DNA from: Clostridiaceae bacterium
Lineage (GTDB): Bacteria; Bacillota; Clostridia; Peptostreptococcales; Tindalliaceae
DNA length: 63,568 nucleotides
NCBI GenBank assembly: GCA_011390155.1
Contig: JAABSW010000013.1
Location: forward strand, 1-63,568
Reading direction: 5' to 3'
Below, one piece after another: positions 31,075-52,618 of the stretch; the first letter of the stretch is position 1; the number at the start of each line of letters is the position of its first letter. A program made the position numbers and the translations under genes. The notes under the pieces were generated by a model. That model saw nothing but the letters and a program-made list of their open reading frames with translations. It ran no database searches and was not told the DNA's origin.

Positions 31075-32016
31075 ATGGAAACGCAAGACAAACGTAAAGC
31101 TTTAACTGAATCGGCCATGATTGCCACACTCACTTCCATGTTTGTGGTGGCCACCTTTTACATTCCCATGCTGTCCATACTACTGGCGCTAATACCAGTG
31201 CCTTTTGTGGTACTGTCCATACGCAGGGGAAACCGGTATGCCTTCTTTTCAATGGTGATGGTGAGTATTATCATTGGCATGCTGACTGGTATTGTCTACA
31301 GCCTCTTTGTGTTGGTACTCTTTGGACCCATGGCGCTGGCCATGGGATGGTGGATCCGCCATCGGATGGACCCCCACGAAGTGATTTTTATCGGCGCAGT
31401 CGCCTCGGCACTGTCCATTTTTGCCATGCTGCAAATCATCGCCGTGGCCAGCGGCATTCAGCTGACAACGGAAATCAGTCAGATGTTTACCCAGGTCATT
31501 CAACAACAGGCGGTAACGTTACAAAACATGAATGTGGAAGTGGTGGCCCTGGAAGACGCTGTTAACTATTTGTTATTGGTTTTTCCCGGACTTATTCTCA
31601 TCCAGTCTTTGTTTGGGGCTTTTGTTAATTATTACCTGACCATGGCTGTGATGCGGCGGTTTGTTCCATCAGACGAACCCCTGCCGGAATTCAGCCGTTT
31701 TCGGCTTCCGGGACACGTGGTATTGGGAGCACTGTTGTTGGTGGTGCTGTCTTGGCTCACCCAGTACGTCGGTGACATCCATACAGGAGGTCTGCTGGCC
31801 AATGTGACCTTATTGGTGGTGGTGGTGTTTTTCATGCAAGGCATATCACTCATCAGCTTCTGGATTAAAGGAACCAGGGTTCCAAAGTGGGTGAGGGGTG
31901 TTATATTGGTGATTTTGGTAATCCTCAGCCCAATGATCACCCTCATTTCCCTGCTGGGAATGGTGGATGTACTGGCTGATTTCAGAAAACTCACTGACAG
32001 GCCGAAAAGTTCTTAA
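31075..32016 (+). CDS. DUF2232 (YybS family) membrane protein
   Basis: The 313-residue protein has about eight hydrophobic segments and the YybS-like start RKALTESAMIATLTSMFVVATFYIPML. The gene immediately precedes gdpP-rplI-dnaB, the same order as yybS-yybT-rplI-dnaC in B. subtilis. The N-terminal layout resembles S-components of ECF-type transporters, a known loose similarity; the function is unknown. Confidence 0.85.
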   Translation: METQDKRKALTESAMIATLTSMFVVATFYIPMLSILLALIPVPFVVLSIRRGNRYAFFSMVMVSIIIGMLTGIVYSLFVLVLFGPMALAMGWWIRHRMDPHEVIFIGAVASALSIFAMLQIIAVASGIQLTTEISQMFTQVIQQQAVTLQNMNVEVVALEDAVNYLLLVFPGLILIQSLFGAFVNYYLTMAVMRRFVPSDEPLPEFSRFRLPGHVVLGALLLVVLSWLTQYVGDIHTGGLLANVTLLVVVVFFMQGISLISFWIKGTRVPKWVRGVILVILVILSPMITLISLLGMVDVLADFRKLTDRPKSS

Positions 32017-41128: not shown

Positions 41129-41149
41129 GTATGCGATATTGGTTTACAA
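41121..41149 (-). promoter_or_regulatory. Possible divergent promoter overlapping the peptidase promoter
   Basis: Minus strand: TTGTAA (41144-41149), 17-base spacer, TATATC (41121-41126). Its -10 shares four bases with the rightward TATAAT. Confidence 0.4.
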
Positions 41150-41166
41150 CAGGAGGGGATCAGCGT

Positions 41167-42726
41167 ATGTCCAAGCAGAATCGTCCAGGCACTTCACAAA
41201 AGAACGGCCGGACCAAAAGCTTGACAGAAGCAATACAAAAAATACATACCCATTGGAAAAAGAAATTAACGCAACGTGATGAAAATAATAAAGATAGAAA
41301 TAAGTCAGTGGAATTAACCTTCATCCAAAATCACCAACAGGAATCGCCTAAGAAAGAGAACCTGTTGCTGAAATTTTGGAACAGCAAACGAAAACAAATT
41401 CTGGCCATGGTGGCTGCTGTCACGCTGGTGGCGGTGGGTTCATATACCTATGCAGCAAGGCAGCAAAGCTATCTGGAAAGCCTGGCAGCTTATGAAATAC
41501 TGTTGGATGGACAACAAGTGGGTATCGTCCGTGATGTGGCTGAGTACGAGGCCGCCGTCAACAGTCTGCAGGCTGAAATGAAACGTTTATACGGCATGGA
41601 AGCTTATATGCCTGATAACCAGGTGGTAGTGGAAATAAACGCCACTGACGAAGAGCTGCATTCCAGAAAAAAAATGATTGCTTCTCTTAAGAGCCAGCTG
41701 GGGATTAAGGTAAAAGCCACTGCCCTTGTGGTTGAGGGGGAACCCCTGGTGATTTTGCCCAGTGAAGAGCAGGCAAAGGAATTACTTGATGAAATAACAT
41801 CACCTTACTTGGACCCAATCGTCAGTTACCTGGACGTGGGATTTGTTGAAAACGTGGAACTGGAAGAAACAGCGGCAGATTTGTCGGATATCTGGGGCAT
41901 GGAAGAAGCCCTGCAATTTCTTGAAACAGGCACCAACGAAACAAAAATCCACGAAGTGCAGCCTGGGGAAAGTTCCTGGTTAATAGCAGATCGAAACAAT
42001 ATGACTGTGGAAGACATAGAAGCGGCCAATCCGGGACTGGCCTCTGAACGGCTGAGTATTGGCCAGGAAATTAACCTGATTGTGCCAAAACCCTATTTAA
42101 CGGTGCGAACAAAAGAATACGCAGAATTGGCAGAACCCATTCCCTTTGAAACGGAAGAAATACCCAACGACAGTCTATACGAAGGTGACCGGCGAATTAC
42201 TGTTCAGGGTGAAGATGGATTTCACGAAATCAAAGCCCATTTAGTGCGTGAAAACGGCAAAGAAACTGACAGAGAAATTCTTGAAGAAGACCGGCTGGCT
42301 GAACCCACCACCCGCATGGTGGCGGTAGGAACAAAAGTTCGGCCTCCCACCATGGCAACAGGCACCTTTATTATGCCCACCCGTGGCCGACTCACTTCCC
42401 CCTTTGGGTTAAGAGGTGGATCACGACACACAGGCATCGACCTGGCGGCAAGGACAGGCACCTCTGTCAAAGCCGCAGATGCAGGAAGAATCTCCTATGT
42501 GGGAACCCGGGGCGCTTACGGTAAACTCATCATTATTGACCATGAAAACGGGTACCAGACCTATTATGCCCACTTAAGTTCTTATGCCGTCAAAACAGGA
42601 GAACGGGTGCACAAAGACCAGCAAATTGGCGCAGTGGGAAACACCGGCCGCAGCACAGGCCCTCATTTGCATTTCGAAGTGCGCATTGATGGGGTTCCCG
42701 TTAATCCTTCTAAATATGTCAATTAA
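41167..42726 (+). CDS. M23 peptidoglycan endopeptidase with LysM and G5 domains
   Basis: A 519-residue membrane-anchored cell-wall hydrolase. About 75 charged cytoplasmic residues precede one transmembrane helix (ILAMVAAVTLVAVGSYTYA). After it come a LysM domain (HEVQPGESSWLIADRNNM...SIGQEINLIVP), a G5 domain (about residues 310-395) and an M23 metallopeptidase domain with SRHTGIDLAA, YAHLSS and GPHLHFEVR, which hold the zinc-binding His and Asp. Such enzymes cut peptide cross-links in peptidoglycan. ATG 41167 follows AGGAGGGG. Confidence 0.93.
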   Translation: MSKQNRPGTSQKNGRTKSLTEAIQKIHTHWKKKLTQRDENNKDRNKSVELTFIQNHQQESPKKENLLLKFWNSKRKQILAMVAAVTLVAVGSYTYAARQQSYLESLAAYEILLDGQQVGIVRDVAEYEAAVNSLQAEMKRLYGMEAYMPDNQVVVEINATDEELHSRKKMIASLKSQLGIKVKATALVVEGEPLVILPSEEQAKELLDEITSPYLDPIVSYLDVGFVENVELEETAADLSDIWGMEEALQFLETGTNETKIHEVQPGESSWLIADRNNMTVEDIEAANPGLASERLSIGQEINLIVPKPYLTVRTKEYAELAEPIPFETEEIPNDSLYEGDRRITVQGEDGFHEIKAHLVRENGKETDREILEEDRLAEPTTRMVAVGTKVRPPTMATGTFIMPTRGRLTSPFGLRGGSRHTGIDLAARTGTSVKAADAGRISYVGTRGAYGKLIIIDHENGYQTYYAHLSSYAVKTGERVHKDQQIGAVGNTGRSTGPHLHFEVRIDGVPVNPSKYVN

Positions 42727-43006: not shown

Positions 43007-44167
43007 ATGAAAAAAGGTATGGCAATCCTGTTGACACTGATGATGGTATTTAGTTTGGCTGCTTGTGGTAACAACAATGCGGCACCGGCAGAAGAAACAC
43101 CACCGGCCAATGAGGCTTCGGCTGAAGTGGTTGAATCGGTTGACTACAAAATTGGTGTCATGACAGGCACAGTGTCTCAAAATGAAGAAGAATACCGGGC
43201 AGCTGAAAACATGCAAGCACTTTTCGGTGAAAAGATCATCATCACCACCTACCCTGACCGTTTCATGCAGGAGCAGGAAACAACCATCACCAACATGATG
43301 GCCATGGCTTCTGACCCTGACCTGAAAGCCATTGTCATGGTACAGGCAGTGCCTGGCGCCGCCGCTGCCATCTCCAGGGTACGTGAAGTACGACCAGACA
43401 TGTTGTTTGTCCTGGGCACCCCGGGGGAAGACCCAGACGTTATTGCCGATTATGGCGACATCATCATGCAAATTGACGAACTGGCCCGAGGTGCGGCAAC
43501 TGCCCAACAAGCAAAGGACATGGGCGCCGAAACCCTGGTACATTATTCCTTCCCACGGCACATGTCTTATGAAATGCTGGCATCTCGCCGGGACAACATG
43601 AAGGCGGAAGCTGAAAGACTGGGGCTGCGATTCATTGAAGAAGATGCCCCCGACCCAACCAGTGATGCCGGCGTGCCTGGAACACAGCAGTTCATCATGG
43701 AAGACCTGCCGCGAAAAGTGGCTGAATATGGTAATGACACCGCCTTCTTTGGTACCAACTGTTCCATGATGGAACCGTTGATTCGCCAAACCATGGAAAC
43801 AGGCGCTATTTTCCCGGTACAATGCTGTCCTTCGCCTTATCATGCGTTACCATCAGCACTGGGGATCGGGGTTCCTGAAGAAAAGTCCGGTGATGTGGAT
43901 TACATCCTGGAACAGATTGGCGAAAAATGTGAAGAAGCTGAAATGACCGGCAGGGTAGGTACCTGGACTGTTCCCATCAACATGATGTATGTGGAAGTGG
44001 GTGTCAAATACGCTGTTGAATTCCTTGAAGGCAGAACCGACGGCAGAGTGGATGCTGAAGTGTTAAAGTCCATCATGAGCGATGTGGCTGGCGGAGAGGT
44101 TGAACTCACCAACTACGGCGATTATGATCATTTCTTCCTGAACCTGGGGGCACCCATTGTTTTTTAA
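43007..44167 (+). CDS. DUF3798 lipoprotein, periplasmic-binding-protein-like
   Basis: A 386-residue exported lipoprotein: a lysine start, hydrophobic stretch and lipobox SLAACG put the anchored Cys at about residue 21, followed by an Ala/Pro/Glu linker. The body (DYKIGVMTGTVSQNEEEYRAAENM, PDLKAIVMVQAVPGAA, LFVLGTPGEDPDV) has the look of a type 1 substrate-binding fold and I assign it to DUF3798. No permease or ATPase gene is adjacent, so if it binds a ligand its transporter is elsewhere. It has its own promoter and terminator. Confidence 0.82.
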   Translation: MKKGMAILLTLMMVFSLAACGNNNAAPAEETPPANEASAEVVESVDYKIGVMTGTVSQNEEEYRAAENMQALFGEKIIITTYPDRFMQEQETTITNMMAMASDPDLKAIVMVQAVPGAAAAISRVREVRPDMLFVLGTPGEDPDVIADYGDIIMQIDELARGAATAQQAKDMGAETLVHYSFPRHMSYEMLASRRDNMKAEAERLGLRFIEEDAPDPTSDAGVPGTQQFIMEDLPRKVAEYGNDTAFFGTNCSMMEPLIRQTMETGAIFPVQCCPSPYHALPSALGIGVPEEKSGDVDYILEQIGEKCEEAEMTGRVGTWTVPINMMYVEVGVKYAVEFLEGRTDGRVDAEVLKSIMSDVAGGEVELTNYGDYDHFFLNLGAPIVF

Positions 44168-44370: not shown

Positions 44371-45435
44371 GTGCTGAACGCAATGTTGGTGGATGACGAA
44401 CCTGTGGCCCTGAAAAGAATGAAGGGTGTTTTGCTAAAAACAGGCCTGGTCCAGATCAAACAAACCTACACAATGCCCGGGAAGGCACTAAAAAACTTCC
44501 GTATCGATGACCCGGAAATTGTTTTTCTGGACATTGAAATGCCCAGCATGTCAGGCCTTGAATTAGCCAGGGAACTCCAACGCATTAAACCAGGGGTGGA
44601 AGTGGTTGTGGTGTCTGCCCATGGGCACTATGCATTGGAAGCCTTTGAAGCACACGTGTCGGGATTTCTTTTAAAACCCATTGATCAAAAGAGAGCCTGT
44701 GACTTAATCAACAAATTGATGCACCGTAAGCAGATCGCCACGAAAACCATCAGGGAAACAATCCCGGAAAAAAGTTTGTATGTCTCAAGTTTCGGGGGAT
44801 TTGCTATTTATACCAACAAGGAAAAAGCACGGTACCTGCAGTGGCGTACCAGTAAAACCAGGGAATTGTTTGCTTTTCTTCATTATCACCAGGGGCAGCC
44901 AGTTTCCAGAGATCAGGTGTTGGAAGCCCTCTGGCCTCACATGAACCTGAATAAAGCGGAACGGAATTTATACACCACCTGTTGTTACCTTCGAAAAATG
45001 TTGAAGGAAGCAGGGCTGCCAGAAGCAGTTCAGCGCCATAACGGGGCGTACCGTTTATGCCTGGAATTATTTGACAGCGACGAAAAAAACCTGCTGTATC
45101 ATTTGGACCAGGAACGCTGTGATGCCCTTTCCCTTGAGGACCTGGAGGCGATGATTCACCTGTACCAGGGAGAATATTGCGGCAGCGAAGACTATTCCTG
45201 GGCAGAAGGTAAACGGGCGTATTATGAGCACCAAGTGATCCGGGTGTTGTGGAAAATGCACGACACCTATCAAAAAATGAAAGACCATGGCAAAGTATTT
45301 GAGGTGCTTCACCAAATGCTGAGGATTGACCCTTACCAGGACGCAGCACAGAAAAAAATACTGGAACATTTGAAAACCAACGGGAATGCCGAGAATGCCT
45401 ACCGGTATTATTCCCAATTTCATCAATTCTATTAA
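44371..45435 (+). CDS. Response regulator with SARP-like (winged helix plus BTAD) output
   Basis: A 354-residue protein. The receiver domain (AMLVDDEPVALKR, phospho-acceptor Asp54 in VFLDIEMP, FLLKP) is followed by an OmpR-like winged helix (about residues 130-220; FAFLHYHQGQPVSRDQVLEALWP, YTTCCYLRKML) and a helical BTAD domain to the end. This combination occurs in clostridial and actinobacterial regulators. No histidine kinase lies beside it; the walK kinase downstream belongs to walR. The start is GTG behind AAGGAGG. Confidence 0.85.
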   Translation: MLNAMLVDDEPVALKRMKGVLLKTGLVQIKQTYTMPGKALKNFRIDDPEIVFLDIEMPSMSGLELARELQRIKPGVEVVVVSAHGHYALEAFEAHVSGFLLKPIDQKRACDLINKLMHRKQIATKTIRETIPEKSLYVSSFGGFAIYTNKEKARYLQWRTSKTRELFAFLHYHQGQPVSRDQVLEALWPHMNLNKAERNLYTTCCYLRKMLKEAGLPEAVQRHNGAYRLCLELFDSDEKNLLYHLDQERCDALSLEDLEAMIHLYQGEYCGSEDYSWAEGKRAYYEHQVIRVLWKMHDTYQKMKDHGKVFEVLHQMLRIDPYQDAAQKKILEHLKTNGNAENAYRYYSQFHQFY

Positions 45436-45537: not shown

Positions 45538-46236
45538 ATGAAGACACGCATACTCATTGTGGAAGATGAAAAAAACATTGCTGATATTGTGAAATTCAAC
45601 CTGGAAAAGGAAGGGTATGAAACAGAGACGGCCTATGACGGTGAAGAAGCCCTGGCAAAGGTAAAATCCTTCGAGCCGGATTTGATTTTGCTGGACCTGA
45701 TGCTGCCCAAAATCGACGGTTTTCAGGTATGCCGGAAAGTGCGGGAACACCATAATATGCCCATTCTCATGTTGACAGCCAAAGAAGAAGAGGTGGACAA
45801 GGTCCTGGGCCTGGAAATGGGTGCTGATGACTACATCACAAAACCCTTTGGCATGCGGGAATTGCTGGCAAGGGTTAAGGCCAACCTGCGCCGCATTACA
45901 CCCATGGATGGTCCTGGGTCTCAGGATCTCATTACTTCAGGAGAAATGACCATAGACCTGGGGAAATATGAAGTGAAAAAATATGATGAAACCCTTGAAT
46001 TAACCATCAGGGAATTTGAACTCCTGCGTTTCCTGGCCTTGCAGCCGGAGCAGGTTTTCACACGGGAACAACTGTTGAAAGAAGTGTGGGGATACGAATA
46101 CTACGGGGATATCCGTACCGTGGACGTCACCGTTCGACGGTTGCGTGAAAAAGTGGAAGACAACGCCAGCAACCCCAGGTTTATCATGACAAAACGAGGC
46201 GTGGGCTATTATTTCAGGAGGACCCCCAATGCTTAA
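45538..46236 (+). CDS. walR: Response regulator WalR (YycF)
   Basis: A 232-residue OmpR-family regulator: receiver with acidic pocket EDE, phospho-acceptor Asp53 in LLDLMLPKIDG and KPF, then a winged helix with EFELLRFLALQPEQVFTREQLLKEVWG and DVTVRRLREKVE. ATG 45538 follows GGAAGGTG. Adjacent walK, yycH, yycI and walJ identify it as WalR, the regulator of cell-wall metabolism, rather than PhoB. It overlaps walK by eight bases. Confidence 0.93.
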   Translation: MKTRILIVEDEKNIADIVKFNLEKEGYETETAYDGEEALAKVKSFEPDLILLDLMLPKIDGFQVCRKVREHHNMPILMLTAKEEEVDKVLGLEMGADDYITKPFGMRELLARVKANLRRITPMDGPGSQDLITSGEMTIDLGKYEVKKYDETLELTIREFELLRFLALQPEQVFTREQLLKEVWGYEYYGDIRTVDVTVRRLREKVEDNASNPRFIMTKRGVGYYFRRTPNA

Positions 46237-48043
46237 AAGTATACGAATAAAAATGATCACCATCTATTTTTTGCTGATATTCATGGCCATGGTGATTGTT
46301 GGTGTGTTTATGATTCAACAGTTTGAAAACTATCACCTGGGTGTGGAACGAAACAATATCATTTCTGTTTCAGGCAGTGTTGCCGCCACCTTGCAGCATA
46401 CAGACTGGCAGCTTGAACAGCAGGAAACACAGGAAAACCTGTCCCTGTACGAACGGGTGGGTATGGAAATTTATGTCATTGAAAGGAACAGCCGGTTTAA
46501 TATTCTGGCCAGTACCAACCTGACTTATGTTGACGAAAACGCCACCCGTATTCTTGAACCTGACTTGATTCTGGGGTCACTGAACGGCCATGACATGGAA
46601 AAAGATGTACTGGCCGGTGCCCAGGGCATCAGCTCCAAAAATATGGCTTTTCCTCTTTACGATGAAAACAACCGGATCAACGGAGTGGTCTACGTCCGAA
46701 AAGATTTGGGAGACATTTACCAAACCCTGGACCAGTCAAAATTCATCATGATCAGGGCCACTCTCCTGGCTTTGGGGATTACCATCATTCTGGGTTACCT
46801 GATTGCCGCCAGTATCACGGGTCCCATCCGGGATGTCACGGTGAAAGCCGCAAAAATGGCTGGGGGTGACTTTGACCAGGTGGTGGAAGTGAAATCAAAC
46901 GACGAAATTGGACAGTTAGCCAGCATGTTCAATCACCTGACAGCCAGGTTAAAAACCTCCCTGCAGGAAATCTCCAGCGAAAAGCAGAAATTAGACACCA
47001 TTCTCACTGACATGGCAGACGGTGTGGTGGCCACAGACATCCGTGGACAGCTGATTCACATCAATCCCAAGGCATTGGAAATGTTGTCCCTCTCCCGGGA
47101 AGAGGCGAAGGATATGACTTTTGACAGCCTTTTCAGCCCCATCAACCAACGGCTCACCCTGAAAAAAATTGGCAGCGACGAGAATGGGTGGCGCGGTCAT
47201 GAGTTACTGGAAATGCGCAACGGTTCTAAACTTCGGGCCAGCTATGCCCCCTACCGCAGTGAGGAAGAAGACATCGACGGGGTGGTACTGTTGTTGCAGG
47301 ACATCACCGAACATGAACGGTTGGAAAAAATGAGGAAAGAATTTGTGGCCAACGTGTCCCATGAACTAAAAACCCCGCTGACCACCATCAAGAGCTATGC
47401 CGAAACCATGCTTGAAGGTGGCGTGGAAGACCCTGTGATGCAGGCACGATTCCTGCAGGTCATTGATGACGAAGCAGACCGCATGGCCCGTCTCGTGCGA
47501 GATTTACTGCAGTTATCCAACCTGGATTACCAACAAATGAAATGGGATCCGAAACCTGTTAATTTGAAGGAATTAATGGACAAAGTTGTACGAAACCTGG
47601 ACCACAGCATTCATGAGAAGAAACACACCCTTGCGTATGACCCGCCTGCTTCAGCCCTGTATACCTATGGTGATGAGGACGCCATTGAACAGGTCATTAT
47701 TAACATCGTCAGCAATGCCATCAAATACACACCTGAGCAGGGCGACCTTAGGCTTTACCTGGAAGAGGAACAATCCACGGTGTCACTGACAGTGCAGGAC
47801 AACGGTATCGGCATCCCCAGTCAGGACATGCCCCGGGTTTTTGAGCGGTTCTACCGTGTTGACAAGGCCCGTTCCAGGGAAATGGGAGGGACTGGCCTGG
47901 GGTTATCCATCGCCCAGCAGATCATCGAAGCCCACGGCGGCAGCATTCACCTGTACAGCCGTGAAAGCAAAGGTACCCGTGTGGTCATACGGTTTCCTAA
48001 AATAAAGGAAGACAGCGAAGAACTGGCTTCCATTCAGCATTGA
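46229..48043 (+). CDS. walK: Sensor histidine kinase WalK (YycG)
   Basis: A 604-residue membrane kinase. TM1 is about residues 10-30, an extracellular sensor domain spans 31-172, TM2 is 173-195, HAMP 195-245, PAS about 252-360, HisKA with His378 in VSHELKTPLTTI, and HATPase_c with N box NIVSNAIKYTP and GGTGLGLSIAQQI. This is the standard WalK layout. YycH and YycI, encoded downstream, are membrane proteins that modulate WalK in Bacillus and Staphylococcus. Confidence 0.94.
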   Translation: MLKSIRIKMITIYFLLIFMAMVIVGVFMIQQFENYHLGVERNNIISVSGSVAATLQHTDWQLEQQETQENLSLYERVGMEIYVIERNSRFNILASTNLTYVDENATRILEPDLILGSLNGHDMEKDVLAGAQGISSKNMAFPLYDENNRINGVVYVRKDLGDIYQTLDQSKFIMIRATLLALGITIILGYLIAASITGPIRDVTVKAAKMAGGDFDQVVEVKSNDEIGQLASMFNHLTARLKTSLQEISSEKQKLDTILTDMADGVVATDIRGQLIHINPKALEMLSLSREEAKDMTFDSLFSPINQRLTLKKIGSDENGWRGHELLEMRNGSKLRASYAPYRSEEEDIDGVVLLLQDITEHERLEKMRKEFVANVSHELKTPLTTIKSYAETMLEGGVEDPVMQARFLQVIDDEADRMARLVRDLLQLSNLDYQQMKWDPKPVNLKELMDKVVRNLDHSIHEKKHTLAYDPPASALYTYGDEDAIEQVIINIVSNAIKYTPEQGDLRLYLEEEQSTVSLTVQDNGIGIPSQDMPRVFERFYRVDKARSREMGGTGLGLSIAQQIIEAHGGSIHLYSRESKGTRVVIRFPKIKEDSEELASIQH

Positions 48044-48072
48044 GTAGAGGTGTCACTGTTTTTTAACGCGGC

Positions 48073-48105
48073 TGTAATTTGTTTGTAACATGGATCCGTT
48101 ATAAT
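48073..48105 (+). promoter_or_regulatory. WalR-type box with adjacent -10 inside the wal operon
   Basis: TGTAAT (48073-48078), TTGTT, TGTAAC (48084-48089): an exact match to the WalR consensus TGTWAH-N5-TGTWAH. A perfect TATAAT follows at 48100-48105, ten bases on. It would give yycH-yycI and the unknown upstream gene a WalR-responsive internal promoter. Confidence 0.7.
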
Positions 48106-48174
48106 GATGTCAAGATGTCGATAGGGTGAGATGGAAATCCCTGAACAGATTGAGAGACTATCGGAGGAAATGCC

Positions 48175-48693
48175 ATGAAAAAATGGATTATTGCCGGTGC
48201 GTTAATACTGCTGATGACCAGTGGCCAAACAGCAACGGCAGAAGCAACGAATACAAATGTAGATGATAATACCATCAGTGAGGCAATAGCTGAAGAGCCA
48301 ATGCTGGAGGTTTTGGTGCCTCAAAAAGACCGGGTTACCAGCCGTGAAACCATGATGGTTTCTTTTCGTGCACCGACGGACAGTTTGGTTGTCGTGGAAG
48401 TATTCCATACCATGGGGATGGCTGACAACGAAACACCAGTGGCACTGTATGAACCCATGGCCTTTGAAATTGGCGTTTTGGAGCGGGGATGGGTGGAACT
48501 GACATTGCAAAAAGGAATTAACCGCATTGTCCTGACCACCACATTGGCGCAAAAAAATGTAGAACCCAAGGTTGAGGTGACGGAACGGATCATTACTGTG
48601 AAAGACTTGGAAGAGGTGCGAGAAGAACTCAGCCGCAACGTGATGCAAACAACGGCCACAGATTTGATTCGGCGATTGACCAACATGGAGTAA
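48175..48693 (+). CDS. Secreted protein of unknown function in the wal operon
   Basis: A 172-residue protein with a clear signal peptide (MKKWIIAGALILLMTSGQTATA) and a likely cleavage after TATA or TAEA. The mature part has an acidic start, then beta-rich sequence (MLEVLVPQKDRVTSRETMMVSFRAP, DSLVVVEVFH, GWVELTLQKGINRIVLTTTL) like an immunoglobulin or bacterial surface domain, and a C-terminal helix. I do not recognise the family. It lies between walK and yycH, an unusual place, directly downstream of the WalR-type box, with 28 bases to yycH. Confidence 0.8.
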   Translation: MKKWIIAGALILLMTSGQTATAEATNTNVDDNTISEAIAEEPMLEVLVPQKDRVTSRETMMVSFRAPTDSLVVVEVFHTMGMADNETPVALYEPMAFEIGVLERGWVELTLQKGINRIVLTTTLAQKNVEPKVEVTERIITVKDLEEVREELSRNVMQTTATDLIRRLTNME

Positions 48694-48721: not shown

Positions 48722-50245
48722 ATGAGCAAAGAAAAATTGAAAAGCCTGCTGTTGGTTATATTAATCGCCACCAGTGTTGTGCTTACCCAGCGTGTCTGGT
48801 TTAGTTCGCCTCTGCAGATGACTTCCTCGGAGGCTTCTTATTTATACGAAAAAGAAGACCAACTGCTAGCAACCCGTGAGCAGGTGATTCGCCCTGAAAA
48901 AATGGTCGTCGGATTTGGAGGCGGAGCAGAAAACAGTCATTACACTTTTTTGGCGCCTTCAGACCTGGACAGGTTTTGGCAGGAAATGAAGATGATCCTA
49001 CGGGATCATTTTGTTAGTATGCCCGTGGTTCAGACCATCACAAGGGAAGAGTATGAAGACCTGCGCACCAATCGCCACGTGGAAATGCATTTCGGAAAGG
49101 GCTTTCCCACCGCTTTCCTCTCCGTCTTATTCGACCAGCAGGAAAACAGCCTGGCATCCGTCACCAACGAAATTCAGTCTATACTAGTCCCTGTCCGCTA
49201 CCAGGGCAACCTATACCTGGTGGGTGATGAGGACCAGGTGTATGAATTTCAGTTGCAGCCACAGGATCAGTTGCACCAGGTGGATGTAGCAGAATTGGTG
49301 GATAGCATTCCTGTGAACAGCTATGTGAAATACTACCCCCTCTTTTCCTATGCAGGCAACCAAACACTGCTTCCTCTCACTTATCAAAACAATAAACCCA
49401 GAATTTTCACAGAAAGTGAAATTGATGCCAGCAGCAACGACCACATGAACAGGTGGGCGGGGCGTTTTTTCAATGAAAATTTTGATTTTGTCAAGACCAT
49501 TCAGGAAACGGGTGGCACCCGAATTTATATGTATGGCTATGGACAGCAGGAAGTACGTATCAATAACCGGGGTCTGTTGGAATACTCAGCTGCAACGGGA
49601 AATCAATCCAGCAGCAGTGTAAGCCGGGCTCTGGACACAGCCCTCATGTTCAAGGCAGACCACTATGGACCCAGCGATGGTCTGGTGCTGCGGGAAGTAG
49701 AACTTTTGGAAGAAGGTCAACTGAGGGGATACCGGTTTGGCTTTGGGTATCATCTGAGAGACTTGCCAGTGGTGCCGGCTCAACTCAGCCAACCTGTTGA
49801 AATTGAAGTTTTCGGTGAAAGCGTCAGAAGCTTCAGCGTCCTTCTTCGCAGACCCATGAGCCTGCCGGAAGTGATGCCGGAAGCGGGTATATTGTCCCCT
49901 CATCGCATTATTGAAGAAGATTTTAACCAGCTGTTGGAAGAATTTGCAGATCGCCAGGGTCTTGAAGCACCGGAAATGCCCCTCCAGGGAGAAGAAGAAG
50001 CCGACATTGAAAACAACGCAGACAACCAGCCTGACCCAGGGGAAGGATCCTTGGTGACAGGTGAAGACTTATTGGGTGCGATTCGCTACGTAGAGTTGGT
50101 ATACCTGGACCGTCAGGAAACCCATCGCCGGGAATTGATGGTGCCTGTCTGGCGCATTGTCATCGACCAGGTTGCCTATGATTTTGACGCGCACGAAGGA
50201 ACCAGAATGCAAACCACGATTCTGACGGAAGAAGGTGTGCGCTAA
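48722..50245 (+). CDS. yycH: YycH family regulator of WalK
   Basis: A 507-residue protein with one N-terminal transmembrane helix (KSLLLVILIATSVVLTQRVW) and a large extracytoplasmic domain, the YycH architecture. Residues about 420-455 form an acidic linker. Sequence identity to Bacillus YycH is low by eye; position between walK and yycI supports the call. In Bacillus and Staphylococcus, YycH and YycI act at the membrane on WalK. The TAA and the yycI ATG overlap by one base. Confidence 0.82.
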   Translation: MSKEKLKSLLLVILIATSVVLTQRVWFSSPLQMTSSEASYLYEKEDQLLATREQVIRPEKMVVGFGGGAENSHYTFLAPSDLDRFWQEMKMILRDHFVSMPVVQTITREEYEDLRTNRHVEMHFGKGFPTAFLSVLFDQQENSLASVTNEIQSILVPVRYQGNLYLVGDEDQVYEFQLQPQDQLHQVDVAELVDSIPVNSYVKYYPLFSYAGNQTLLPLTYQNNKPRIFTESEIDASSNDHMNRWAGRFFNENFDFVKTIQETGGTRIYMYGYGQQEVRINNRGLLEYSAATGNQSSSSVSRALDTALMFKADHYGPSDGLVLREVELLEEGQLRGYRFGFGYHLRDLPVVPAQLSQPVEIEVFGESVRSFSVLLRRPMSLPEVMPEAGILSPHRIIEEDFNQLLEEFADRQGLEAPEMPLQGEEEADIENNADNQPDPGEGSLVTGEDLLGAIRYVELVYLDRQETHRRELMVPVWRIVIDQVAYDFDAHEGTRMQTTILTEEGVR

Positions 50246-51123
50246 TGGATTGGACAAAGGCGAAAACCATTTTAATCATTGCGTTTCTCATTACCAATGT
50301 TTTCCTTGTGGCAGGTTTGGTGCGTGAAAACACCCGCCAGGAATCCCCTGTCATAGACGAAACGTATATGACACAAACCTTGGCCTTCCTGGAAGACCAG
50401 GGTCTTGTGCTGGAAAGGGAACTTCCCAGAAACATACCCAGCCTGGCACCCATGACAGTGGAATATGTTTTTTTCCCTGCTGCTGAAACCGCAGACCATT
50501 TTTTGGGTGATGACTGGGAGCTGACAGGGGATAATACGTTTCAGAACGAAGTGCGTCAGTTGACCATCATCAACAGCAAACAGCTGATTCTTCGAATGAT
50601 TGAACCGGAAAACCCACTCCAAAACATGAATGAAGAAACCATTAAAACAGCCAGTCGGACTTTTTTGGAAGCACAGCAACTGTATCCTGAAGGACTGAAT
50701 CTCTCACAAATATATGTTGGAATAGTACCGGAGTACCATGAAGAACCCCTCCATAAGCTGGTGTATGAACAGACCTATGAAGGCCGTTTTATTGGCGAAA
50801 GCTATGTGCATGTGTACCTGAACCAGCAAGGGATCGTGGCAGTGGAAGCGCTGCTGCTGAAAAACCCTTCTGAAACAGAGCAGACATCAGTTCCCAGAAC
50901 GATGATCGACGCACCGGAGGCACTGCTCCGTAAACTGGAGGAAATGCTGGCTGAAAACCAATCCCAACTGCCGGTTGTTGTCAGCCGGGTGGAAGCCGGC
51001 TATTACTTCCCCCTGACAAGTGACCCGCTGACTTCCTGGGAAGCCGTGGCGTCGGGCACAGCAGTACCTGCCTGGAAAATAGTACTGAAAGAAGGCAACA
51101 CTTATTACCAGGAAGCCTTTTAA
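50245..51123 (+). CDS. yycI: YycI family regulator of WalK
   Basis: The 292-residue protein begins MDWTKAKTILIIAFLITNVFLVAGL, the characteristic YycI membrane anchor, and has an extracytoplasmic domain with the two-lobed YycH/YycI fold pattern. Its one-base overlap with yycH implies equimolar synthesis, as expected for a YycH-YycI complex with WalK. No terminator is obvious after it, but murA has its own promoter. Confidence 0.85.
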   Translation: MDWTKAKTILIIAFLITNVFLVAGLVRENTRQESPVIDETYMTQTLAFLEDQGLVLERELPRNIPSLAPMTVEYVFFPAAETADHFLGDDWELTGDNTFQNEVRQLTIINSKQLILRMIEPENPLQNMNEETIKTASRTFLEAQQLYPEGLNLSQIYVGIVPEYHEEPLHKLVYEQTYEGRFIGESYVHVYLNQQGIVAVEALLLKNPSETEQTSVPRTMIDAPEALLRKLEEMLAENQSQLPVVVSRVEAGYYFPLTSDPLTSWEAVASGTAVPAWKIVLKEGNTYYQEAF

Positions 51124-51304: not shown

Positions 51305-52618
51305 ATGACCGGTCTTCGGATCGGGTACTATATGGAAAAACTCATTATTAAAGGCGGCGTAAAACTAAAAGGGCAAGTGGATGTAAGCGGGTTTAAAAAC
51401 TCTGCAGTGGCCCTGATTCCGGCAACGGTTTTGGCAGGTGCTCCCTGTACCATCGACAATTTGCCAGGCATTAGTGATATCAAAATATTGACACAGATTC
51501 TCCGGGATTTGGGAGCAGAGGTGACTGAAAATGGTCTAAACCCCACCAATGGATCCCACTCACTGATCATCGACACCACCACCATGACAGAATGTTTTGC
51601 AGACTATGACATGGCAAAAAACCTGAGGGCTTCCTACTATTTATTAGGTGCAGCCCTGGGCCGCTTTAAGAAAGCACGCGTTGCCTATCCAGGCGGGTGC
51701 AACATTGGTGTGCGCCCCATTGACCAACACATAAAAGGTTTTGAAGCATTGGGAGCCAGTGTATCCATTGAACACGGCATTATATCTGTTGAAGCAGACA
51801 AGCTGATCGGAGCTGAAATTTACCTGGACGTTGTCAGTGTTGGTGCTACCATCAACATTATGTTGGCAGCTGTCATGGCAGAAGGGAAAACCGTGCTGGA
51901 AAATGCTGCCAAAGAACCACACATTGTGGACGTGGCCAATTTTCTCAACTGTATGGGCGCAGACATCAGGGGCGCCGGAACAGACGTGATCCGCATCAAC
52001 GGGGTTAAGGAAATGGGCGGTTGTTACCACACTGTCATCCCAGACCAGATTGAAGCCGGCACTTACATGATTGCCGCAGCTGCCACTGGTGGTGACGTGA
52101 TGATTAACCGTGTGATCCCCAAACATTTGGAATCGGTCACAGCCAAGCTAAAAGAAATGGGCGTTGACATTACGGAAGAAGACGAATCCCTGCGGGTGCG
52201 TGTCAATGCGACAAAACCACTGAAGAATGTTAGCATTAAAACCCTGGTTTACCCAGGATTTCCCACAGACCTGCAACAGCCAATGAGTTCATTGTTGTCC
52301 GTTGCCAAAGGCATCGGGATTGTGACAGAAACCATTTTTGAAGGGCGGTTCAAACATGTTGAACAGCTGAAAAAAATGGGTGCCAACATCAAAGTGGAAG
52401 GTCGGGTAGCTGTTATAGAAGGTGTGGAAGGTCTTACGGGCGCCACGGTAACTGCCACAGACCTGAGGGCAGCAGCCTCCCTGGTGATTGCCGGTTTAAT
52501 GGCCGAAGGCACCACAGAAGTGGAAAACATTCATTTCCTTGACAGGGGTTATGATTTATTCCAGGAAAAGATACAAGCCCTGGGCGCAGATGTGCGCCGG
52601 GAAACCGTGGAAGACTAA
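51305..52618 (+). CDS. murA: UDP-N-acetylglucosamine 1-carboxyvinyltransferase
   Basis: This 437-residue enzyme transfers enolpyruvate from PEP to UDP-GlcNAc, the first committed step of peptidoglycan synthesis. The PEP-binding cysteine is in [12 protein letters not shown] (residue 132 from this start), so the protein should be sensitive to fosfomycin. [19 protein letters not shown] and [13 protein letters not shown] are family landmarks. The ATG at 51305 has AAGGGTGG upstream; an ATG at 51332 matches usual N-termini (MEKLIIKGG) but has a poor ribosome site. Here murA sits between yycI and walJ. Confidence 0.95.

Follow-up and report, generated by a model that had tools for sequence, protein, structure and literature searches.

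The stretch of DNA analysed (the window; 63,568 nucleotides of contig JAABSW010000013.1 of a Clostridiaceae bacterium, assembly GCA_011390155.1) carries the genes for WalRK, the essential cell-wall two-component system of most Firmicutes, followed by a small open reading frame and the accessory genes yycH and yycI (Table 1). Of the named relatives found, Anoxynatronum buryatiense (class Clostridia) is the nearest; its WalK is 79% identical. On the 3' side of yycI are genes for an EPSP-synthase-family protein (presumably murA) and a metallo-beta-lactamase-fold protein (which we take to be yycJ), and an htrA-like gene. The EPSP-synthase-family gene (51305-52618), probably murA, sits within the wal cluster, flanked by yycI and the yycJ-like gene. 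The gene directly 5' of walR (44371-45435) codes for a BTAD-domain response regulator (Response_reg, Trans_reg_C, BTAD), and a gene for a DUF3798 protein (43007-44167) lies near the cluster.

Table 1. Genes and promoter features at the wal locus of the window
Feature	Position	Strand	Remarks
walR (yycF/vicR), response regulator	45538..46236	+	Response_reg and Trans_reg_C domains
walK (yycG/vicK), sensor kinase	46229..48043	+	HAMP, PAS, HisKA and HATPase_c domains
Putative operator half-site 1, TGTCAC	48051..48056	+	11-bp register; TGTMAH in 70/75 distinct elements
Putative operator half-site 2, TTTAAC	48062..48067	+	YTTAAH in 74/75 distinct elements
Putative operator half-site 3, TGTAAT	48073..48078	+	TGTAAY in 69/75; in the preliminary description
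Putative operator half-site 4, TGTAAC, then A at 48090	48084..48089	+	TGTAAY in 73/75, A in 74/75; in the preliminary description
Predicted -10 element, TATAAT	48100..48105	+	10 nt past half-site 4; exact in 72/75
walX (name coined for this analysis), 172 aa	48175..48693	+	37 divergent sequences aligned
yycH (walH)	48722..50245	+	PF07435, E 8.9e-12
yycI (walI)	50245..51123	+	PF09648, E 1.5e-16

The junction between walK and walX contains TGTAAT-TTGTT-TGTAAC (48073-48089), which begins 29 nt past the walK stop codon (48041-48043). A preliminary description had reported here a TGTWAH-N5-TGTWAH box without mismatch and, 3' of it, a perfect TATAAT; both are present, and the next ATG after the TATAAT is the one at 48175. 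It had, however, overlooked two distal half-sites; the element has four half-sites in steps of 11 bp, then exactly 10 nt and then TATAAT. Transcription would start near 48112. The internal promoter that had been proposed 5' of yycH and yycI is supported, but would not be one of the ordinary type: a promoter scan listed no TTGACA-like promoter or -35 hexamer at the junction. Judged by its sequence, the element is not an ordinary -35/-10 promoter, and half-sites occupy the place of the -35 region. The description had named yycH and yycI as genes that would be served, but the first gene of the unit, encoding an unnamed, predicted secreted protein, had been missed.

WalX is a fast-evolving, unnamed family of predicted secreted proteins. 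AlphaFold2, run on two sequences, gave a modest model (mean pLDDT 65, with residues 1-41 below 50) in which a beta-rich domain lies between a signal-like N-terminus and a C-terminal helix. In the alignment, WalX of the window is 62% identical to its A. buryatiense homologue and 11-44% identical to the other 35 sequences. It matched no Pfam family at 0.001 (one sub-threshold family at 0.047) and no NCBIfam family at 0.05; Foldseek found no fold match to the model at E ≤ 0.001, and the best match of the WalX profile in the PDB had an E of 0.45. Weak Pfam matches among the homologues were to Glucodextran_B (8/37) and GbpA_D3 (3/37). Where start codons were chosen automatically, they may lie too far upstream.

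Comparison of loci around walK revealed the pattern TGTMAY, YTTAAH, TGTAAY and TGTAAY followed by A, in 11-bp register, with TATAAT 10 nt on. These loci were chosen solely for having half-sites 3 and 4 close to the walK stop codon, apart from L030, which was added by hand; half-sites 1 and 2 nevertheless align across the 24 distinct elements, although they had played no part in the choice. The 24 elements come from 26 rows, from which L065 (same genome as L026, the A. buryatiense locus) and a shifted register of L081 were dropped. When the best -10 sequence was sought 5 to 15 nt away, an exact TATAAT at exactly 10 nt was found in 20 of the 24 (exceptions L030, L070, L071 and L084). Six of the 29 loci L064-L092 have no box after walK (L082, L083, L086, L089, L090 and L091), L090 and L091 being near contig ends; L093 (30% identical) was left out. 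The N5 spacers vary and are often rich in A+T, while the 11-bp TGTAAY register is kept across the class. Twenty elements, the window included, were aligned without gaps (alignment A1) and gave a sequence-only model, R1, which these 20 match by construction. The 75 distinct elements counted in Table 1 were chosen by a position-matrix score of at least 22, so their column counts are helped by that selection, and one of them (L146) belongs to another two-component system.

In 45 of the 75 distinct elements the TAA stop of the walK-like gene is also the TAA of a half-site (half-site 1 in 33, half-site 2 in 10 and half-site 3 in 2); the window is not among them. At such loci the element and the end of the gene share bases, and the overlap moves in 11-bp steps.

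The 17-bp motif by itself is weak evidence. TGTWAH-N5-TGTWAH has two exact matches in the window, the second (31560-31576) within an ORF. Shuffling the window 100 times gave 0.25 matches on average, and three of the shuffles contained two or more. In the whole genome the motif is not enriched (25 matches, against 27 for a reversed control), and 16 of the 25 are inside and nine between automatically called ORFs. As the motif alone is at chance level, the evidence lies in the whole composite element. The exact pattern TGTAAY-N5-TGTAAY-N10-TATAAT matched 38 times, in 37 of 78 genomes, whereas its control had two matches. With R1, the window site is the best place in its own genome (50.3 bits, E 6e-13; next place 16.1 bits), a score that is partly due to construction since the window is one of the 20 rows of R1. 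Rfam gave no match in the window at gathering thresholds. A looser search of 41 genomes, in which the same composite pattern was allowed up to two mismatches, gave 172 matches (among them walX sites and one repeated sequence in genome G019) against 111 for the control and was rejected as too noisy for defining a regulon.

The element is widespread and closely associated with yycH. In the order (148 genomes), R1 matched at E ≤ 0.05 in 100 genomes, and YycH was found in 89 with a profile of 21 rows (A4). At E ≤ 1e-4 there were 83 R1 matches in 82 genomes of the order, and 82 of the 83 are upstream of yycH on the same strand, with 524-1070 nt (median 604) between the linked matches and the yycH match. 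A match at this threshold occurs in 82 of the 89 genomes with YycH and in none of the 59 without it (Fisher p ~7e-34 from the 2x2 table, which ignores kinship). If G017 (E 2.2e-4) is counted, a linked element is present in 83 of the 89; the other six YycH genomes (G036, G043, G046, G049, G051 and G115) have no linked R1 match. Across the class, 78 of 245 genomes matched R1 at 1e-4. Two of the best 20 class loci were already known (G000 and G008), and all 18 new ones have a match to the walX profile downstream, 15 of them also with yycH within the stretch fetched. The exact-pattern matches agree: 28 of the 30 loci fetched have walX or yycH next, and the other eight matches coincide with R1 matches upstream of yycH, giving 36 of 38 in total. 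Up to E 1e-3, six R1 matches not upstream of yycH are listed, five of which were fetched (L145-L148 and L151). Two of the weaker R1 matches, L145 and L147, from two genomes, stand before genes for large NAGPA-domain proteins with signal-like starts.

Where walK and the accessory genes lie apart, the element is found with the latter. In G013, G024, G035 and G026 walK has other neighbours, and the element is elsewhere, before walX-yycH-yycI-yycJ; on the same contig, the operon with the element is ~39 kb from walK in G026 and ~44 kb in G024. In four further genomes (G144, G128, G124 and G059) the operon and element are present with no walK within the stretch fetched. The 34 loci compared that have the element with this operon all show yycH downstream and an ORF in between, which BLAST recognized as walX in 27 but not in seven (L140, L154, L155, L158 and L161-L163). 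At three loci where yycH follows walK directly (L027, L028 and L031) there is no R1 match at that place, while L030 has a walX homologue and a weak copy of the element (22.9 bits). The element is tied to the walX-yycH-yycI unit, and its geometry and conservation are computational observations.

Several lines of evidence point to WalR as the binder. The half-sites are those of the published WalR consensus, TGTWAH-N5-TGTWAH, as quoted in PMC4168254; the refinement given there for Streptococcus mutans VicR, TGTWAHA-N4-TGTWAHA, prefers a following A, with which the conserved A past half-site 4 agrees. The five best PDB matches of the DNA-binding domain of the window's WalR are yycF (2d1v), VicR (2hwv), walR (2zxj) and two unnamed response regulators, and its recognition helix, RTVDVTVRRLREK, is identical in 2d1v (presumably the B. 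subtilis protein) and 2hwv. OmpR-type DNA-binding domains were sought in 11 genomes (ten besides the window's own), and genes were taken from six of the ten, small genomes that have the element and four to eight domains each. In the resulting tree of 37 regulators, from which one long-branched odd row (G026_L238) was omitted, WalR forms the sole strongly supported clade with members from all six small genomes (100/100). All six are also touched by a loose nine-row fork (81/84) that joins two subfamilies. From these comparisons, WalR is the best candidate for the protein that binds the element.

Direct repeats of 11 bp adjoining the -10 are also a habit of PhoB-type regulators, and another member of the OmpR family, most plausibly of PhoB/PhoP type, might bind instead and couple walX-yycH-yycI to a different signal such as phosphate. 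In the window's family half-site 1 is indeed TGTCAY, and the TGTCAY version of the layout was found at six places in the 78 genomes. PhoU-domain proteins were found in all 14 genomes searched, and at least some genomes with the element have phosphate-type systems. G017 has a stand-alone PhoU at a distance of ~6 kb from a paired kinase and regulator. G026, which may also have such a system, has PhoU within proteins of 547 and 584 amino acids, and close to one of these lie a kinase and a regulator. The five TGTCAY promoters inspected, however, serve other genes, for small secreted proteins and for an ABC transporter adjacent to a two-component system of its own, with no recognizable phosphate genes among them. 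This suggests that the regulators are told apart by A or C at position 4. In G030, which carries the element, PhoU occurs only as part of a 541-residue protein, and the fork with the PhoU-linked regulators of G017 and G026 includes none of the four G030 regulators. Furthermore, no non-Wal regulator has orthologues from all six small genomes in a single well-supported clade, and the element does not have the features of a PhoB/PhoP box, since its proximal half-sites read TGTAAY and it stands before wal genes. Binding by another regulator of the OmpR family is, accordingly, considered unlikely. At L217 and L219 a related layout that has C at position 4, TGTCAC-N5-TGTCACA-N9-TATAAT, precedes genes for small secreted proteins, at L217 with a response regulator gene following.

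Other candidate WalR sites were examined after the fact. In family f3, TGTWAH-N5-TGTWAH occurs in reversed orientation immediately 3' of the sequence judged by eye to be the -10 of a gene for an M23/G5/LysM peptidase, whose orthologue in the window is at 41131-42726. The box is present in all eight genomes in which the gene was found (L224, L228, L285-L289 and L291), in seven exactly and in one with a single mismatch; the gene was not found in the short stretch L290. In families f1 (the window's own) and f11, none of seven genomes had the box at the M23 gene, even when one mismatch was allowed. Since a site downstream of the -10 is in the position of a repressor, the f3 gene is a probable WalR-repressed hydrolase, as predicted from the layout. 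In the window's own genome, four other sites have TGTAA in both half-sites (L011, L017, L022 and L024), two of them adjoining genes for secreted proteins with a stalk domain (Cu_amine_oxidN1), one with AMIN and one with fasciclin. Elsewhere WalR regulons comprise many genes, whereas TGTAAY-N5-TGTAAY-N10-TATAAT occurs almost only at the walX promoter (36/38); other sites in these genomes would have to be weaker or to follow a different layout.

The element is, then, likely to be a WalR operator-promoter for the walX-yycH-yycI unit, at which WalR would activate transcription and close a feedback loop. Two WalR dimers would lie side by side on the four half-sites, extending through the -35 region to 10 nt from TATAAT, and WalR would recruit RNA polymerase without a -35 hexamer by class II activation, the mode of PhoB, whose pho box overlaps the -35 region. 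Phosphorylated WalR would raise the levels of three proteins, predicted secreted WalX and membrane-bound WalH and WalI. The latter two would modulate WalK, the resulting loop setting the gain of the Wal system. We infer binding by WalR, activation as its effect and a negative loop. The sign follows from inhibition of WalK by WalH and WalI, as described for B. subtilis in PMC7299342; with a positive role like that reported for S. aureus in PMC5013275, the loop would be positive. The suggestion of the preliminary description that a WalR site governs the supply of YycH and YycI and so forms a feedback loop gains support from the conservation of the element before walX-yycH-yycI in much of the class, its persistence where the operon is apart from walRK, the absence of strong copies from genomes of the order without YycH and the position of WalR as the clearest shared candidate. 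Against this reading stand the near restriction of the exact pattern to one promoter, the missing box at the M23 gene in f1 and f11, the seven YycH genomes with no match at 1e-4, the ability of other OmpR-type regulators to bind similar repeats, and published statements that wal operons are not autoregulated.

Two further explanations would leave the promoter in place with a different control. It might be a conserved constitutive promoter, its repeats being UP-like or structural with no response regulator involved; the near-perfect TATAAT and the A+T-rich character of many spacers would suit this. However, no -35 hexamer is listed, the TGTAAY register is maintained across the class while the spacers drift, and the repeats match a known WalR half-site, which together make constitutive expression very improbable. 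An equally slim chance is given to repression, in which WalR would bind but block RNA polymerase. WalR does repress some B. subtilis genes, such as from PiseA, as PMC7299342 reports, but the half-sites of the element precede the -10 and take up the -35 position, whereas the presumed repressor site of the f3 peptidase gene is downstream of it.

A role for WalX itself is more tentative. It may be a new exported Wal regulator that sets gain in the manner of CpxP, with WalR inducing walX-walH-walI through a four-half-site operator of long standing in the class and with WalX, WalH and WalI together tuning WalK from the outside. If so, the level of the three proteins would determine the set point of cell-wall hydrolysis. 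In the Cpx system, CpxR induces periplasmic CpxP, which acts on CpxA; similarly, a response regulator would here induce a small exported accessory protein encoded beside the modulators of its own kinase. The likeness drawn is one of arrangement, and that WalX acts on WalK is conjecture.

No description of the element was found among the titles and abstracts listed in literature searches that covered only a minority of subscription papers. The C. difficile operon, as given in a 2022 study (PMC9210968), is walA-walR-walK-truA2, with walA first and no walHI; it is stated there not to be autoregulated, as in other Firmicutes. In B. subtilis, a shift of the set point through the level of WalK-WalH-WalI was judged unlikely in 2019 because the operon is not autoregulated (PMC7299342). 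For walRKHI of S. aureus, PMC4801191 describes two promoters, both upstream of walR and with no WalR site. The words walH and walI do not occur in the main text of PMC10746227. Co-regulators, on the other hand, are often regulated by their own system, according to PMC11502775.

Many clostridia have a highly conserved switch of WalR type before the accessory genes of WalK, so that the system probably adjusts itself, and in this it would differ from the relatives studied so far. If the element is a WalR operator, many clostridia use the accessory-level route that was judged unlikely for B. subtilis, and an unnamed exported protein is the product of the first gene of that route. The element is also a single, sharply defined DNA site and provides a promoter signature with which the wal accessory operon can be located in unannotated genomes.

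With class II promoters of PhoB type the element shares 11-bp direct repeats ~10 nt from the -10 and the lack of a -35, but its half-site is TGTAAY rather than TGTCAY and its target genes are others. With the WalR operators of Bacillus, Staphylococcus and Streptococcus it has in common the TGTWAH-N5-TGTWAH direct repeats and the recognition helix of YycF (2d1v), whereas here there are four half-sites at a fixed distance from the -10 and the targets are wal accessory genes. That other wal operons of the Firmicutes are not autoregulated is taken from published statements; the walX element would imply otherwise for the genomes that carry it. Compared with the wal operons of B. subtilis, S. aureus and C. 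difficile, the operon described here has an extra predicted secreted gene between walK and walH and, before it, a putative internal operator-promoter.
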